Positions 3,287 through 9,947 of a stretch of DNA of 42,924 nt are shown in pieces. This DNA is from Chloroflexota bacterium (GTDB lineage Bacteria > Chloroflexota > UBA6077 > FW602-bin22 > CADDYW01). The stretch covers positions 1 to 42,924 of the forward strand of contig JADGGD010000009.1 in NCBI GenBank assembly GCA_019690095.1, written 5' to 3'. Below the pieces are notes generated by a model. It was given only the letters and a program-made list of their open reading frames with translations. It did not search any database and was not told the DNA's origin. Position numbers and translations under genes: made by a program. Numbering within the stretch: the stretch's first letter is position 1; each line of letters begins with the position of its first letter.

Positions 3287-5419
3287 ATGGATCCTCGACG
3301 ACCTCTTCAGTCCGAAAGCCGCGAGTCGCGCCGGGGTCAACGCCGCCTGCGGACCTGGCGTCATCCGACTGGCCTGTTCTCGACCATTCGAAGTTTCCAC
3401 ACCTCGGATGTCGCGGCTATCGCCGAGGTGCTGATTGCGGCGGCCGGCCTGGGCCTCTTCAGTCTGGTGATCGCACTCCCCCTTGCTGCATACACCGCGT
3501 TCGTCTACATTGCCCGGGATATCCCGCCGGTCTCGACTGTCGTCAATCAACCAGTCTTCCAGACAACACGCATGTACGATCGGAATGGCGTGCTTCTTTA
3601 TGAGCTTATTGACCCCAACCAGGGGCGCCGAATCCTGGTCAATCTCAATCAGATCCCGACATCCCTGATCGATGCGACGATTGCCGTCGAGGATCCCACT
3701 TTTTTCAGTAATCCCGGTGTCGATCCACTCTCGATCCTCCGTGCGGCCTATCAGAATCTCTCCCACCGGGAGATCGTGAGCGGTGCCAGCACACTCACCC
3801 AGCAGCTCGCTCGCAATCTGCTCTTCGATATTCAGGAGCGTCAGTCGCAGACGCTGGACCGCAAGCTGAAAGAGGCAATCTTCGCCATGCGCCTCACCCA
3901 GACCTATTCGAAACCCCAGATTCTCAGCATGTACTTCAACGAGGTGTACTACGGGAATCTCAGTTACGGTGTCGGGACTGCGGCTGAATCGTATTTTGGC
4001 AAATCAGTCGATCAGCTCGATCTGGCCGAGGCGGCTCTCCTGGCCGGACTTCCCCAGGCGCCAGCCGACTATGACCCGATCCATCATTTTGCGGCGGCCA
4101 AGGCCCGGCAGGCTTACGTTCTCGATCGCATGGTCGCGCGCGGCTACATCACCCCGGACGAGGCTGCCCGCGCCAGGGCGGAGCCCTTGCACTTCCAGAG
4201 CCCACGCTTCACCATCAAGGCTCCCCACTTCGTCAACTACGTGACCCAACTGATCGAAGAGCGATACGGCCGAGACGCCCTCTACAACCGCGGCTGGCGC
4301 ATCCAGACCACCCTCGATCTGGGCCTCCAGCAGATCGCTGAGGCCAAGGCACGTGAACGTATCGATCAGATCCGCCAGCAGATGAATGCTCACAACGCCT
4401 GCGTGGTGACAATTCAGCCGTCAACTGGCGAGATCCTCACGATGGTTGGAAGCCTGGACTATTGGGATGCCAGCATCCAGGGACAGGTCAACGTCTGCAC
4501 ATCGCTGCGCCAGCCGGGCTCGTCGGTGAAGCCATTTACCTACGTCACAGCCTACGAGCGCGGCTACGTACCGGATTCGCTCGTCTACGACGTCAAGACC
4601 GCTTTCGACCGAGGACCCGGCCTGAGCCCGTATGTTCCGACTAACTTCGATTTCCAGTTTCACGGACCGGTCATGCTCCGAGAGGCGCTGGCGAGTTCGC
4701 TCAACATTCCTGCGGTCAAGCTCCTGCAGCGGATCGGGGTGCACGCGATGGCTGATACGGCGCACGCTATGGGGATCACCTCGATGACAGACCCTGACCG
4801 GTACGGTCTGACCCTCACTCTTGGAGCCGCCGATGTCACGCCGCTGGACATGGCCTTTGCCTACAGCGTGTTCGCGAACGATGGCTTCATGGTGGGCGAG
4901 GAGGTCCCGCTGAAGGATCGCGTCCTCGGGATGCGCCGGTACGAGCCAGTCGCGATCCTCCAGATTACCGATCCGGCGGGGAACATCGTCTATCGGTACC
5001 ATCCGCCTCCGCCGATCCAGGTGGTCTCACCCCAGGCCGCCTATCTGATCACGAGCAGCCTGTCGGATGACCACGCTCGCCACTTCACCTTCGCGCCGGG
5101 CGGCGTGCTGAATATCGATCGCCCGGCTGCGGTGAAGACGGGCACAACCCAGTTCGAGCAGGACGCCTGGACGATCGGCTACACGCCCGATCTGGCGATC
5201 GCGATCTGGGTGGGAAACACCGACGGGACACCCATGAAGCAGATCGAAGGGGTAACATCGGCGGGATACATCTGGCACACCTACGCACCTGCTGCGCACC
5301 GATACCTGCGCTTGCCGGTTCGGGATTTTAAAGTACCAGCCGGCGTGGTGCACGGCCCGGTCTGCGGGAAAATCGACTGGTATATCCAGGATGTCCCCCC
5401 GATCTGCACGGTTGGATAG
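3287..5419 (+). CDS. bifunctional penicillin-binding protein 1A (transglycosylase/transpeptidase)
   Basis: A 710-residue class A PBP that polymerises lipid II and cross-links peptidoglycan outside the membrane. A short basic cytoplasmic tail precedes a membrane anchor at about residues 45-75. The GT51 domain has its catalytic Glu at about 135 in VEDPTFF, plus GASTLTQQLARNLL and KEAIFAMRLTQTYSK. The transpeptidase motifs are intact: SSVK at 412-415, SLN at 471-473 and KTG at 617-619. The usual EDRxFxxHxG signature reads EDPTFFSNPG, so its Arg and His are replaced. An in-frame TAA two codons upstream fixes ATG 3287 as the earliest start. This is the only PBP in the window with an intact transpeptidase site, which matters given the neighbouring degenerate PBP2. 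Confidence 0.95.
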   Translation: MDPRRPLQSESRESRRGQRRLRTWRHPTGLFSTIRSFHTSDVAAIAEVLIAAAGLGLFSLVIALPLAAYTAFVYIARDIPPVSTVVNQPVFQTTRMYDRNGVLLYELIDPNQGRRILVNLNQIPTSLIDATIAVEDPTFFSNPGVDPLSILRAAYQNLSHREIVSGASTLTQQLARNLLFDIQERQSQTLDRKLKEAIFAMRLTQTYSKPQILSMYFNEVYYGNLSYGVGTAAESYFGKSVDQLDLAEAALLAGLPQAPADYDPIHHFAAAKARQAYVLDRMVARGYITPDEAARARAEPLHFQSPRFTIKAPHFVNYVTQLIEERYGRDALYNRGWRIQTTLDLGLQQIAEAKARERIDQIRQQMNAHNACVVTIQPSTGEILTMVGSLDYWDASIQGQVNVCTSLRQPGSSVKPFTYVTAYERGYVPDSLVYDVKTAFDRGPGLSPYVPTNFDFQFHGPVMLREALASSLNIPAVKLLQRIGVHAMADTAHAMGITSMTDPDRYGLTLTLGAADVTPLDMAFAYSVFANDGFMVGEEVPLKDRVLGMRRYEPVAILQITDPAGNIVYRYHPPPPIQVVSPQAAYLITSSLSDDHARHFTFAPGGVLNIDRPAAVKTGTTQFEQDAWTIGYTPDLAIAIWVGNTDGTPMKQIEGVTSAGYIWHTYAPAAHRYLRLPVRDFKVPAGVVHGPVCGKIDWYIQDVPPICTVG

Positions 5420-5457
5420 GCGGCAAGCCGTCCGAGGAGCGTGGACCTCTCGCGAGA

Positions 5458-5487
5458 TTGTCGGCCGACCCGACCTTGCGGTATCAT
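5458..5487 (+). promoter_or_regulatory. candidate promoter of the coiled-coil gene
   Basis: TTGTCG (5458-5463; 4 of 6), an 18-base spacer, then TATCAT (5482-5487; 5 of 6). It lies between the PBP1A stop and the GTG start at 5532 and could begin transcription of the coiled-coil/PBP2/RodA genes. Confidence 0.45.
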
Positions 5488-5531
5488 CGGCATGGCGACC
5501 ACCAACCGGAACGGCGCAGGGAAGGGATGTC

Positions 5532-6806
5532 GTGACACTGGATTCCCCAGTCCCGCCGCGGGACTCCGACCTTGAACCAGGCATCCCGCACCATCTCGTG
5601 ACCTGGCTCGAAGGACAGCGGCAGGCCGAGCACGAGCGGCTGAGCCAGCTTTCGCGCTATATTGATCAACTTCGCGATGAACTCCGCGACTGCAGCGCTC
5701 AGCTTGCCCGTGTCAATGAGGCGGCTAGCCAGCCCAATGCCCACTATATCGATCTGGTCAACCAGATTCGCGAGCGGCTCGCGGCACTCGACCGGTCGGT
5801 GCAGGAGCATCTGGACGCACAAGCACGCGAGGATCAGGCGCGAGCGGCCCAACGGGAACGGGATCAACGACAGCTTGCCGAGCTGGCCCAGCAGGTAAAT
5901 GGGCTGACTCGCACCGTCGATGCGCTCGGTGGCCGCCTCCTCGGTCTGGCGGAGGAAGTGCGTCACCTGCGCGAGGAACGTGCGCCGGTCGCTCAGCTCC
6001 TAGAGGATCTCCAGCGCTCCCAGACCGCACTCCAGAACCGGGTCGCGACCCTTGACGAAATCACACGTCGGTATGCGGCGTCGCAGTCCCTCGCCGAGCA
6101 GGCTGACGAACGACTGCGCAGCGATATCGTCCGCCTGGATGGACTGGTGAAGCTGGTGGATGTCCGCCTCACGCGCGAGACCGGTGATCTTCGACGCGGG
6201 CTGGACAGCCTGCAGGCCCAGATAGAGGATCGTCTGAAGTCCGTGGCCGAGATGTCACGCCGGATCACGGTCCTGACCGATCAGCGGGATCAGGTCGAAC
6301 AGCGACTGGCGGCCCTGACAAGCGATCTGGAAGGCGCGGTCTCGGAGATCGGCAGGCTCGATGCGCAGGGGAAGATCGACCGCTCCGCCCTCAAGCGGGT
6401 GGCTGATGCAGTCGATGCGCTGAGCCATCGTCTGGACGAGGTCGGCGTGGCCTCGTGGCAGCTCGGCGAACGGCTGAACGGGCTCGCCGCGAGCCTGGAG
6501 AGCCTTCAGGGTGTGGTCGAGAGTCTGGGAAACCGAATCGACGAGATCGATCAGCGTGAGGCGCATCTGGATGAAGAGCACCGTCGTCTGGACGAGGCCC
6601 TTGCCGCGCTGAGCGGTGACCTGCGCACCACCGAGATGAGTGCCCGGGATCGGGTGACCGGCCTTGTGGATCGCCTCGAAGGGGCGATCAGCGAACTCCG
6701 GTCATGGGTCGAGAGCTCTCAGCGCCTCTCGATCGAACACCTGCGCCGCACGATCAGCGAGCTTCAACAGCAGCTGCGCGAGCTGGAAGCGGAGCGTCCA
6801 TCGTGA
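5532..6806 (+). CDS. long coiled-coil protein of unknown function
   Basis: About 424 residues, almost entirely charged heptad-like sequence (for example DEITRRYAASQSLAEQADER). It has no cysteine-rich, catalytic or membrane-spanning motif and no signal peptide, so I expect a rod-like cytoplasmic protein. The GTG at 5532 with AAGGGA four bases upstream is the best start; the frame is open back to 5391 but would overlap the PBP1A end. I do not recognise a family. It sits between PBP1A and the PBP2-like/RodA pair, so an envelope-related scaffold role is plausible but is only inference from position. SMC-like or Apolipoprotein-type domain hits would be expected from its composition and should not be over-read. 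Confidence 0.8.
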   Translation: MTLDSPVPPRDSDLEPGIPHHLVTWLEGQRQAEHERLSQLSRYIDQLRDELRDCSAQLARVNEAASQPNAHYIDLVNQIRERLAALDRSVQEHLDAQAREDQARAAQRERDQRQLAELAQQVNGLTRTVDALGGRLLGLAEEVRHLREERAPVAQLLEDLQRSQTALQNRVATLDEITRRYAASQSLAEQADERLRSDIVRLDGLVKLVDVRLTRETGDLRRGLDSLQAQIEDRLKSVAEMSRRITVLTDQRDQVEQRLAALTSDLEGAVSEIGRLDAQGKIDRSALKRVADAVDALSHRLDEVGVASWQLGERLNGLAASLESLQGVVESLGNRIDEIDQREAHLDEEHRRLDEALAALSGDLRTTEMSARDRVTGLVDRLEGAISELRSWVESSQRLSIEHLRRTISELQQQLRELEAERPS

Positions 6807-6921: not shown

Positions 6922-8844
6922 ATGATCGAGCCGATCACCTCGCTGAATGACCCTCTCGAACCGCTCGCCGAGGAGGAGACCGACGAGCGAGGACATCACG
7001 GTGGACGCCTGAAGATCCTTACCGCCGTGATCCTGCTGGGCATTCTCATTCTCGTGGTTCAGCTCTATCGCCTCCAGATCGTCCAGGGGGCTGCGTTTCG
7101 CGAGGAGGCAGATAATAACCGCTTCCGCCTGATGACGATCTCGCCGCCCCGGGGCGTGATCTACGATCGCAATCACACCGTCCTGGCACGCAACCGGCCT
7201 AGCTACAGCATCGGGGTGGTCCGTGCCGACCTGCCCGCGGACCCGATGCGCGCGATCGTCTTTCGCCGTCTCGCCACCCTGATCGGGATGTCGGTAGCGG
7301 ATATCACGCGCACCGTGGATGCCGATCCCGGCAATCAATTCAGCTTCATTCCTCTGCGGTCGAATGTGCCGCCGGAGATCGCGTTCCAGATTGAGGAGCG
7401 CCATCGCGACCTCCCGGGTGTGCACGTGCAGCCGGAGCCGATCCGGGAGTATCCGCTCGGACCGGTTGCCGCACCGGTTATCGGGTACGTCGGGCGGATC
7501 AGTGATGCCCAGTACCAGCGGCTCAAGGATGATCCAGTCCGGCGGTACAGCCGCAATGATACGATCGGTCAGGTGGGCATCGAGCAGACCTTCGAGAGTC
7601 AGCTCCGCGGGCAGCCCGGCGCGGAACAGATGGAAGTGGATGCGACCGGCCGCCAGGTCCGATCGCTCGGCGCGATCGATCCAGTCCCCGGACATAACCT
7701 GGTCCTGACGATTGATGCCAGCCTTCAGCAGACGATCTATCGTATCCTGTCGGCAGGCCTCGACCGCTACCAGATGGCGGCGGCAGTCGCGCTGGACCCC
7801 CGGAACGGCCAGGTCCTGGCGCTTGTCTCGGTGCCTTCGTATGATGACAATCTGTTCGCCGGCGGCATCAGCACTCGCGACTATGAAGCACTGCTCAATG
7901 ACCCGCGGCACCCGCTGATCAACCAGGCTATCAGTTCGGCCTTCCCCCCGGGCGCGACGTTCCATCTTGTGACAGCTGCAGCGGGCCTGGAGACCGGGGT
8001 GATCTCACCCCGCACGAAGATCGATTGTAATGGCTCGATCACAGTTCCTAACCGCTACGATCCAACTGTGGGAACACGGTTGAATGACTGGAAGGCATTC
8101 GGTCCGCAGGATGTGGTGAGCGCCATCGCCGATTCCTGTAATGTCTTCTTCTATGAAGTCGGGGGCGGTGATCCATCCGGTCGCAGGGATGGCGTGGGAA
8201 TCGACGCGCTGGGGCGGTATGCGCGCCTGCTGGGGCTGGGTACACCCACTGGAATCGATCTGGTCGGGGAAAGTGACGGCCTGGTTCCGACGGTCCGCTG
8301 GAAGCGCCAGACCCTCAATCAGGAGTGGGTTCCCATGGACACGTACCTCACCTCAGTTGGACTGGGGTACGTGACGGTGACGCCGCTTCAGATGGCGGTC
8401 CTTGCTGCCGCTATCGCCAATGGAGGAACCCTCTACCGTCCGCAGCTGGTGCTGGAGACAGTTGATGCCCAGGGACGCGTGGTCTCGCGCTTCACGCCCG
8501 ATGTCGTGCGGCGGCTACCGCTTAAGCCGGAGACGCTAAGCCGCCTGCGTGAGGGCATGGTGGACGCAGTTCGGAAGGGACAGACGGACCAGGGGACATC
8601 TTACGACGGTGCGGCACAGCGCGCTGCGGTCTCCGGCCTGGCTGTCGCCGGCGTTGTCGGCTCTCCAGAGTTCGGGACACCGGACAAGAGCGGCGCGCTT
8701 TCCACCCACGGCTGGTTTGTGGGATTCGCACCAGCCGATCACCCACGTCTCGCCCTGGCAGTCTTCGTCTGGCGCGGGACCGGCCCCGGCGATGCGGCGC
8801 AGATCGCCAGCCAGATCTTTTCCACCCTGAAGGAGCACTCTTAG
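6922..8844 (+). CDS. PBP2-like protein with degenerate transpeptidase site (RodA partner)
   Basis: A 640-residue class B PBP architecture: cytoplasmic acidic tail, membrane anchor at about 31-49 (KILTAVILLGILILVVQLYR), a PBP-dimer/pedestal domain (SPPRGVIYDRNHTVLARN, then LPGVHVQPEPIREYP) and a C-terminal transpeptidase fold. The fold is clear, but key residues are absent. The box normally PPGSTFK reads PPGATFH, giving Ala 345 for the acylated Ser and His 348 for the general-base Lys. The KTG triad reads VVG at 578-580. The SxN motif survives as SCN at 405-407. Codons at 7954-7965 and 8653-8661 read clearly and the frame is intact, so this is not a frameshift artefact. RodA follows after two bases, the usual rodA-mrdA pairing. 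I infer a non-catalytic partner or activator of RodA. The start at ATG 6922 has no clear ribosome-binding site. Confidence 0.85.
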   Translation: MIEPITSLNDPLEPLAEEETDERGHHGGRLKILTAVILLGILILVVQLYRLQIVQGAAFREEADNNRFRLMTISPPRGVIYDRNHTVLARNRPSYSIGVVRADLPADPMRAIVFRRLATLIGMSVADITRTVDADPGNQFSFIPLRSNVPPEIAFQIEERHRDLPGVHVQPEPIREYPLGPVAAPVIGYVGRISDAQYQRLKDDPVRRYSRNDTIGQVGIEQTFESQLRGQPGAEQMEVDATGRQVRSLGAIDPVPGHNLVLTIDASLQQTIYRILSAGLDRYQMAAAVALDPRNGQVLALVSVPSYDDNLFAGGISTRDYEALLNDPRHPLINQAISSAFPPGATFHLVTAAAGLETGVISPRTKIDCNGSITVPNRYDPTVGTRLNDWKAFGPQDVVSAIADSCNVFFYEVGGGDPSGRRDGVGIDALGRYARLLGLGTPTGIDLVGESDGLVPTVRWKRQTLNQEWVPMDTYLTSVGLGYVTVTPLQMAVLAAAIANGGTLYRPQLVLETVDAQGRVVSRFTPDVVRRLPLKPETLSRLREGMVDAVRKGQTDQGTSYDGAAQRAAVSGLAVAGVVGSPEFGTPDKSGALSTHGWFVGFAPADHPRLALAVFVWRGTGPGDAAQIASQIFSTLKEHS

Positions 8845-8846
8845 TC

Positions 8847-9947
8847 GTGGAGACGCGGGCCTGGCGGCACTTTGATCCGGTTCTCCTGCTGGCGATGATC
8901 CTGCTAGTACTCTACGGGCTGGCGATGATCCACAGTGCGACCTTCGAGCGGTCCGGCGCGGGCATCGATCCGCTGGTGTACCACCAGGCGGCCTACGGGA
9001 TCGCCGGGTTTGGCCTGTTTATGGCTTTGAGCAGCCTCGAGTACCGCGTGCTCGGGAATCTCGCCTGGTCCTTGTACGCGGGCGCCATTGGCCTCCTGAC
9101 CCTCGTTCTCTTCGTCGGACGCATTCTCCACGGCTCGCAGCGGTGGATCCAGCTGGGGCCGATTCAGTTCCAACCGTCTGAGTTCGCCAAGCTCTGTGTT
9201 GTCATCGCGCTGGCACGGTACCTGTCGCGCGAGGCCGACAACATCAAGAGCCCGCGCGTCTCACTGGTGTCATTCCTGATCGCGGCACTCCCACTCACTC
9301 TGATTGAGCTGCAGCCGGACTTCGGCACAGCGACAGTCTATCTGGCCATCTGGCTGGGGATGCTCTTCGTGGCCGGGGCGCCGCTTCGGGTCTTCGGCTT
9401 CCTCTTTGGGCTCGCTGCGGCTGGCGCGCCAGCTGCCTGGCTGCTCATGCACGATTACCAGCGACAGCGCATCCTAACATTCCTCAACCCGCAGAGCGAT
9501 CCGCTTAACACGGGCTACAATACGATCCAGGCGCTGATCTCGGTCGGTGCAGGAGAGTTCCTGGGACGCGGTTATCTGAGCGGCTCGCAGAATCAGCTCC
9601 ACTTTCTCCGGGTGCAGTACGCCGACTTCATCTTCTCGGTCGTGGCAGAAGAACTGGGATTCGTTGGCTCGGTAGTCCTGCTGTTCCTCTTCACCCTCCT
9701 GCTTCTCCGCGGCCTCCGTGCCGCCAGCCGCTCACGGGAGGACTTCGGGCGCCTGCTCTGCTGCGGCATCGTCACGATGCTGGCGTACCAGGTGGTGGTC
9801 AACGTGGGGATGAACGTCGGCCTGCTCCCGATCACCGGCGTGCCGCTGCCGATGATCAGCTACGGCGGGAGTTCGCTTATGACGTTCATGGGGTCCCTTG
9901 GTATACTTGAGAGCGTCGTGATGCGGCATCGAAAGCTAGAGTTTTAA
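8847..9947 (+). CDS. rodA: RodA, SEDS-family peptidoglycan glycosyltransferase
   Basis: A 366-residue polytopic membrane protein of the RodA/FtsW/SpoVE (SEDS) family, which polymerises lipid II into glycan strands together with a class B PBP. SEDS hallmarks are present: GSQRWIQLGPIQFQPSEFAK, the extracellular-loop segment YADFIFSVVAEELGF with the putative catalytic Asp at 260, and PITGVPLPMISYGGSS. Start is GTG 8847 with AGGAG at 8831-8835. Pairing with the adjacent PBP2-like gene favours RodA (elongation) over FtsW (division). No mreBCD genes are in the window. Confidence 0.93.
   Translation: METRAWRHFDPVLLLAMILLVLYGLAMIHSATFERSGAGIDPLVYHQAAYGIAGFGLFMALSSLEYRVLGNLAWSLYAGAIGLLTLVLFVGRILHGSQRWIQLGPIQFQPSEFAKLCVVIALARYLSREADNIKSPRVSLVSFLIAALPLTLIELQPDFGTATVYLAIWLGMLFVAGAPLRVFGFLFGLAAAGAPAAWLLMHDYQRQRILTFLNPQSDPLNTGYNTIQALISVGAGEFLGRGYLSGSQNQLHFLRVQYADFIFSVVAEELGFVGSVVLLFLFTLLLLRGLRAASRSREDFGRLLCCGIVTMLAYQVVVNVGMNVGLLPITGVPLPMISYGGSSLMTFMGSLGILESVVMRHRKLEF

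Follow-up and report, generated by a model that had tools for sequence, protein, structure and literature searches.

A PBP2 homologue without transpeptidase catalytic residues is retained beside rodA in Chloroflexota

Introduction

The usual task of PBP2 is to cross-link the cell wall as the cell elongates. A stretch of 42,924 nucleotides from an uncultured Chloroflexota bacterium (contig JADGGD010000009.1; hereafter the window) carries a homologue of the PBP2 gene, mrdA, next to rodA, in which the residues for this chemistry appear to be missing. The locus raises the question of why such a protein would be kept, and of what would cross-link the glycan strands made by the adjoining RodA. It is known from point mutants that the activation of SEDS proteins and the chemistry of class B PBPs are separable. 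A sequence-only reading of the window proposed that its PBP2 is a non-catalytic scaffold or activator. Here the gene is compared with its relatives in the order and across Chloroflexota, and the other transpeptidases of the genome are considered.

The PBP2 gene of the window

Translation of the gene gives 640 amino acids with no internal stop (Table 1). The product has a predicted N-terminal membrane helix (residues 27-65), a PBP_dimer domain (73-248) and a Transpeptidase (TP) domain (287-633). Against TIGR03423 (pbp2_mrdA) it scores 565.7 bits for a cut-off of 455, which places it 110 bits above the equivalog threshold, and it shares domain order, length and RodA adjacency with PBP2/MrdA, the class B PBP of the elongasome. 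The structure predicted for it is of moderate confidence (mean pLDDT 67.5, 8 sequences in the alignment). Its best matches are to the E. coli and other PBP2 structures and to RodA-PBP2 of T. thermophilus (6PL5); the fold search confirmed the PBP2 family and nothing beyond it.

The catalytic boxes read FPPGATFH, DSCN and AGVVGS where functional enzymes have PPGSxFK, SxN and GKTG. Unlike functional PBP2/MrdA enzymes, the window protein lacks the serine and lysine of SxxK, replaced by A345 (GCG at 7954) and H348 (CAT at 7963), as well as the lysine and threonine of KTG (codons 578-580 are GTT GTC GGC); the SxN motif is present. Solved MrdA/PBP2 structures place their own active-site box at the site of PPGATFH. 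The losses, the retained SCN and the full-length frame had all been claimed from the sequence alone and are confirmed by translation, except that the first box spans residues 342-348 and not 343-348. By descent, domain architecture and synteny the protein is a PBP2/MrdA; it lacks the catalytic features that also define the family and, as read from its sequence, is a pseudoenzyme member of the family. Current annotation names such dead proteins as active PBP2, the window protein being well above the mrdA equivalog cut-off.

Table 1. Features of the window and dead PBP2 genes of a second lineage
Feature	Position	Strand	Remarks
Class A PBP (PBP1A-like)	3287..5419	+	GT and TP motifs intact: RQPGSSVK, SLN, KTGT
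Coiled-coil protein, candidate elongation factor	5391..6806	+	Start codon uncertain; listed ORF overlaps PBP1A end
mrdA/PBP2 homologue, catalytically dead TP domain	6922..8844	+	640 aa, full length
SxxK box, degenerate: PPGATFH (Ser now A345, Lys now H348)	7945..7965	+	Aligns with the box of a solved MrdA structure
SxN motif kept (SCN; S405-C-N407)	8134..8142	+	Motif alignment
Degenerate KTG box VVG (V578-V-G580)	8653..8661	+	Motif alignment
rodA (SEDS polymerase), catalytic-type Asp in ADFIF kept	8847..9947	+	TIGR02210 rodA_shape 382 bits (cut-off 336.7)
Dead PBP2s of family f16	L280:3223-5067 and L281:5639-7741		mreB-mreC-PBP2-rodA cluster

Distribution of the loss

Thirteen genomes of the order were sampled. 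PBP2 is dead in all four genera of the window's family f1 (the window genome, G000, and G001-G003) and in one genus (G004) of a second family, f2. The three boxes read A..H / SCN / VVG in the window, A..H / SCN / EVG in G001, A..Q / SCN / VVG in G002 and A..Q / GCN / HAA in G004. In G003 they read S..Q / SCN, a contig end cutting the gene before the third box. The SxxK lysine is gone from 5/5 of these proteins, while the serine remains in G003. As to the idea that Ala/His and VVG might be conserved across the clade, it is the loss that is conserved and not the identity of the replacing residues (A/S..H/Q; VVG/EVG/HAA). In the remaining eight genera of the order (G005-G012) PBP2 scores intact, and so do the second copies of G005 and G011 and the PBP2s of those members of the class that have one. 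The grouping of G004 with f1 is weak on the PBP2 tree alone (79/50 in one tree, 45 in another); the tree of a dead class A PBP (see below) groups them at support 100.

Among 121 PBP2 homologues sampled across Chloroflexota, 114 keep both the S and the K of SxxK. Beyond f1 and f2, dead PBP2s were detected in two genera of family f16, reading PPGSMLN / HCD / MGA in G051 and PPGPMLD / GCS / LGG in G029. Both genes sit between mreB-mreC-like genes (named from N-terminal sequences and position) and rodA, that is, in an elongasome cluster. One origin for all dead PBP2s was rejected when f16 was held together with f1 and f2 (AU p = 0.006, catalytic columns masked). The f16 proteins lost PBP2 catalysis independently of f1/f2, so that the loss is not unique. 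In a third lineage, the PBP2 of G168 (L282:5760-7973, near mreB/mreC) has intact SxxK and SxN motifs and has apparently lost the KTG lysine (AGVMVGTP).

The division counterpart, ftsI, is missing from the window assembly, as contig C320 stops at mraY. The SxxK box of FtsI is intact in G001 and G002. The dcw-linked FtsI of G003 (L072 / L050:988-2751) is dead, with GSLFR (PGSLFR) / SSE / AEG, as is that of G009 (L283:2021-3721), with VSLIR / GSE and the KTG deleted; no MecA_N PBP was found in the G009 genome (74% complete). Given a dead FtsI and a PBP2 without the SxxK lysine, no SEDS partner of G003 seems to be catalytic.

RodA and its gene neighbourhood

The two-base gap between PBP2 and rodA reported earlier holds: the stop codon (TAG) occupies 8842-8844 and the rodA start (GTG) follows at 8847. 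The catalytic Asp of the ADFIF-type segment is present in RodA of 13/13 genomes of the order. In E. coli RodA, the catalytic D262 falls within the equivalent segment, E258-F263 (PMC10449877). Only two SEDS genes occur in the window genome.

The gene order coiled coil - PBP2 - rodA - gcvPA - gcvPB is the same at the dead copies of the window, G001 and G002 and at the intact copy of G006. Since the neighbourhood is the same, dead and intact copies are orthologs and the dead copy is not a divergent paralog. In the dead genomes the adjacency of PBP2 and rodA is retained wherever both genes are readable. The coiled-coil gene lies directly 5' of PBP2 in G001, G002, G003, G004 and G006 as well; adjoining as it does dead PBP2 in f1 and f2 and intact PBP2 in G006, its product is a candidate elongation factor. 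A search for MreC gave no match in the window MAG and one in each of G001-G004, and the absence, a point against the mechanism proposed below, is probably due to the incompleteness of the assembly.

Other transpeptidases of the genome

Six TP-domain proteins are encoded in the window assembly. Class B comprises, besides PBP2, two MecA_N (PF05223) PBPs with a PBP_dimer domain, on contigs C21 and C284. Their SxxK and KTG motifs are intact, and at the SxN position they have SCD, a form that many intact PBPs share. One of the two has an N-terminal membrane segment. The C284 protein (L038:162-2366) has a lipoprotein-type N-terminus (LITAC) and no obvious membrane anchor. Class A comprises the PBP1A-like protein of the window, a second intact PBP on contig C353 and a third on contig C39 (L006:301-2799). 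The latter has a strong GT domain and a PASTA domain, and its TP domain reads GILG / GLS / HAA. With its orthologs (L095, L096, L097, L098) it forms a separate clade, found in the five genomes of the order that have a dead PBP2 and in no other genome of the order; this may point to a wider uncoupling of polymerisation from cross-linking. Four YkuD L,D-transpeptidases complete the set. The sequence-only reading, which left cross-linking to PBP1A or other enzymes, was right about the intact motifs of PBP1A at 3287; to this enzyme must be added C21, C284, C353 and the YkuD proteins. It had missed the MecA-type PBPs, and also the class A PBP whose TP domain is dead.

Intact MecA_N class B PBPs are found in all dead-PBP2 genomes except G029 (66% complete), and G041, of the same genus, has one. 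MecA-type PBPs are also present in most relatives with an intact PBP2. Because of this they could at most permit the loss and do not explain it, and as a sufficient cause they were rejected for want of specificity. An expansion of L,D-transpeptidases was likewise rejected as the single cause, the intact-PBP2 family f6 having equally many.

Could a MecA_N-type PBP be the working partner of RodA, the dead PBP2 being a modulator, decoy or negative regulator? Other class B PBPs had been proposed as something to look for, a complete paralogue counting against the scaffold idea, and the genome does hold two complete ones, of which one has a membrane segment at its N-terminus and both narrowly exceed the NCBI pbp2_mrdA cut-off. 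However, neither gene lies beside a SEDS gene, and the lipoprotein-type N-terminus of the C284 protein makes it probable that it has no transmembrane helix packing against RodA. The dead genomes, moreover, keep a conserved pedestal and the PBP2-rodA linkage described above. We regard such a substitution of partners as unlikely.

Conservation of the dead domain

Between f1 genera, identity is 68-78% in the dead TP domain, 64-71% in the pedestal and 71-80% in RodA. The dN values are 0.17-0.27 with dS at least 1.3 and mostly saturated; pN is 0.13-0.23 versus a pS of about 0.6-0.8, synonymous changes being near saturation. Positions conserved to 90% or more across 24 intact relatives number 32 in the pedestal and 73 in the TP domain. 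In the window PBP2, 31 of the 32 pedestal positions are unchanged and one is changed, and 11 of the 73 TP positions are changed. The TP changes fall on five of the seven catalytic-motif positions (S345, K348, K578, T579 and T581, with S405 and G580 kept) versus 6/66 of the others (Fisher p = 0.0006). This is the pattern expected if the chemistry was lost while fold and contacts were kept. On these comparisons, purifying selection on the dead PBP2 domain is supported.

We consider it very unlikely that the dead PBP2 is a recently inactivated relic, en route to gene loss. The catalytic residues do vary among genera (A/S, H/Q, VVG/EVG), and the G004 protein diverges faster in its TP domain (42% identity with G006 and G012) than in its pedestal (53-55%). 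Yet the frame is full in five genera of two families, except at the contig end of G003, within f1 the TP domain equals the pedestal in conservation and comes close to RodA, and the loss of the lysine is common to the whole family. It is less likely still that the protein transpeptidates through an altered active site. SCN and many cleft positions are kept, but a conserved alternative nucleophile is not seen (residue 346 varies, T/A/T/I, as do the serines that precede the box), and both lysines, the general base and that of KTG, are lost. Finally, an assembly or sequencing artefact, conceivable for a fragmented source MAG (3.8 Mb, 403 contigs, 5% contamination) and a doubt that the sequence-only reading had itself raised about the SxxK and KTG codons, is refuted by related, non-identical dead PBP2s in four other genomes that derive from two or more separate public projects, the loss being common to independently assembled MAGs of five genera.

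Proposed mechanism and precedents

We think it probable that PBP2 persists here as a pseudoenzyme whose role is to activate RodA, and that D,D-cross-linking is provided in trans by MecA_N-type and class A PBPs, possibly with L,D-transpeptidases. Judging from its motifs, the dead PBP2 could not be acylated and would neither cross-link nor bind penicillin covalently. It would be kept as the structural and allosteric partner of RodA, binding the polymerase and switching it on, and it would probably bind MreC too. Of the earlier scaffold or activator proposal, it stands that the protein is non-catalytic, conserved and next to an apparently active RodA; the activator role we infer from gene linkage, from conservation that includes the pedestal, and from the known biology of SEDS-class B PBP pairs. 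Cross-links between the strands made by RodA would then be formed in trans. The most likely enzymes for this are the intact MecA_N-type class B PBPs together with class A PBPs, the L,D-transpeptidases being possible additional cross-linkers. A likely route is that redundancy with a MecA-type transpeptidase lifted selection on PBP2 chemistry, after which the catalytic residues may have been lost while folding and RodA contacts remained under selection.

PBP2 activates RodA, and class B PBPs activate their own SEDS polymerases (PMC6207328). In E. coli, when transpeptidation by PBP2 is blocked, RodA synthesis becomes a toxic futile cycle (PMC6207328), so that cross-linking in trans must be efficient here. 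The closest parallels to the proposed arrangement are engineered. B. subtilis carrying the inactive PBP2B(S309A) survives only if PBP3, a relative of PBP2a, is present (Sassine et al. 2017, PMC5656894). As proposed here, a non-catalytic SEDS partner is kept structurally and transpeptidation comes from a PBP2a-like class B PBP; unlike there, where FtsW and division are concerned, the Chloroflexota case is natural, clade-fixed and belongs to RodA and elongation. An S. aureus strain with mecA/PBP2a can do without the TP activity of PBP1 but not without PBP1 itself (Wacnik et al. 2022, PMC9426605). Again the protein is needed and its chemistry can be replaced by a MecA-type enzyme, as we propose, but that case is a laboratory mutant of a division complex and this one a wild-type elongation system. 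With C. difficile SpoVD(S311A) and PBP3 (PMC12713402), the likeness is a SEDS-class B PBP function partly independent of catalysis; in contrast, that is an engineered mutant, and its redundancy does not need PBP3 catalysis.

Significance

No description of a natural dead PBP2 was found in searches of the open-access literature, and for inactive class B PBPs the titles and abstracts listed there gave engineered examples only. The separation of activation from chemistry seems to have been fixed by nature in elongation, and more than once. It is quite possible, although we advance it tentatively, that Chloroflexota evolved a non-catalytic elongasome at least twice, with G003 apparently having a non-catalytic FtsI in addition, such that the SEDS proteins of G003 would work with non-catalytic partners only and all cross-linking there would occur in trans, by MecA-type and class A PBPs and perhaps L,D-transpeptidases. 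If the proposed reading is true, a Rod complex does not require a transpeptidase of its own in order to work. Whether PBP2-coupled cross-linking is needed to avoid a futile cycle of the mecillinam type becomes a testable mechanistic question, and a RodA partner that is dead, as its motifs predict, would escape acylation by beta-lactams.
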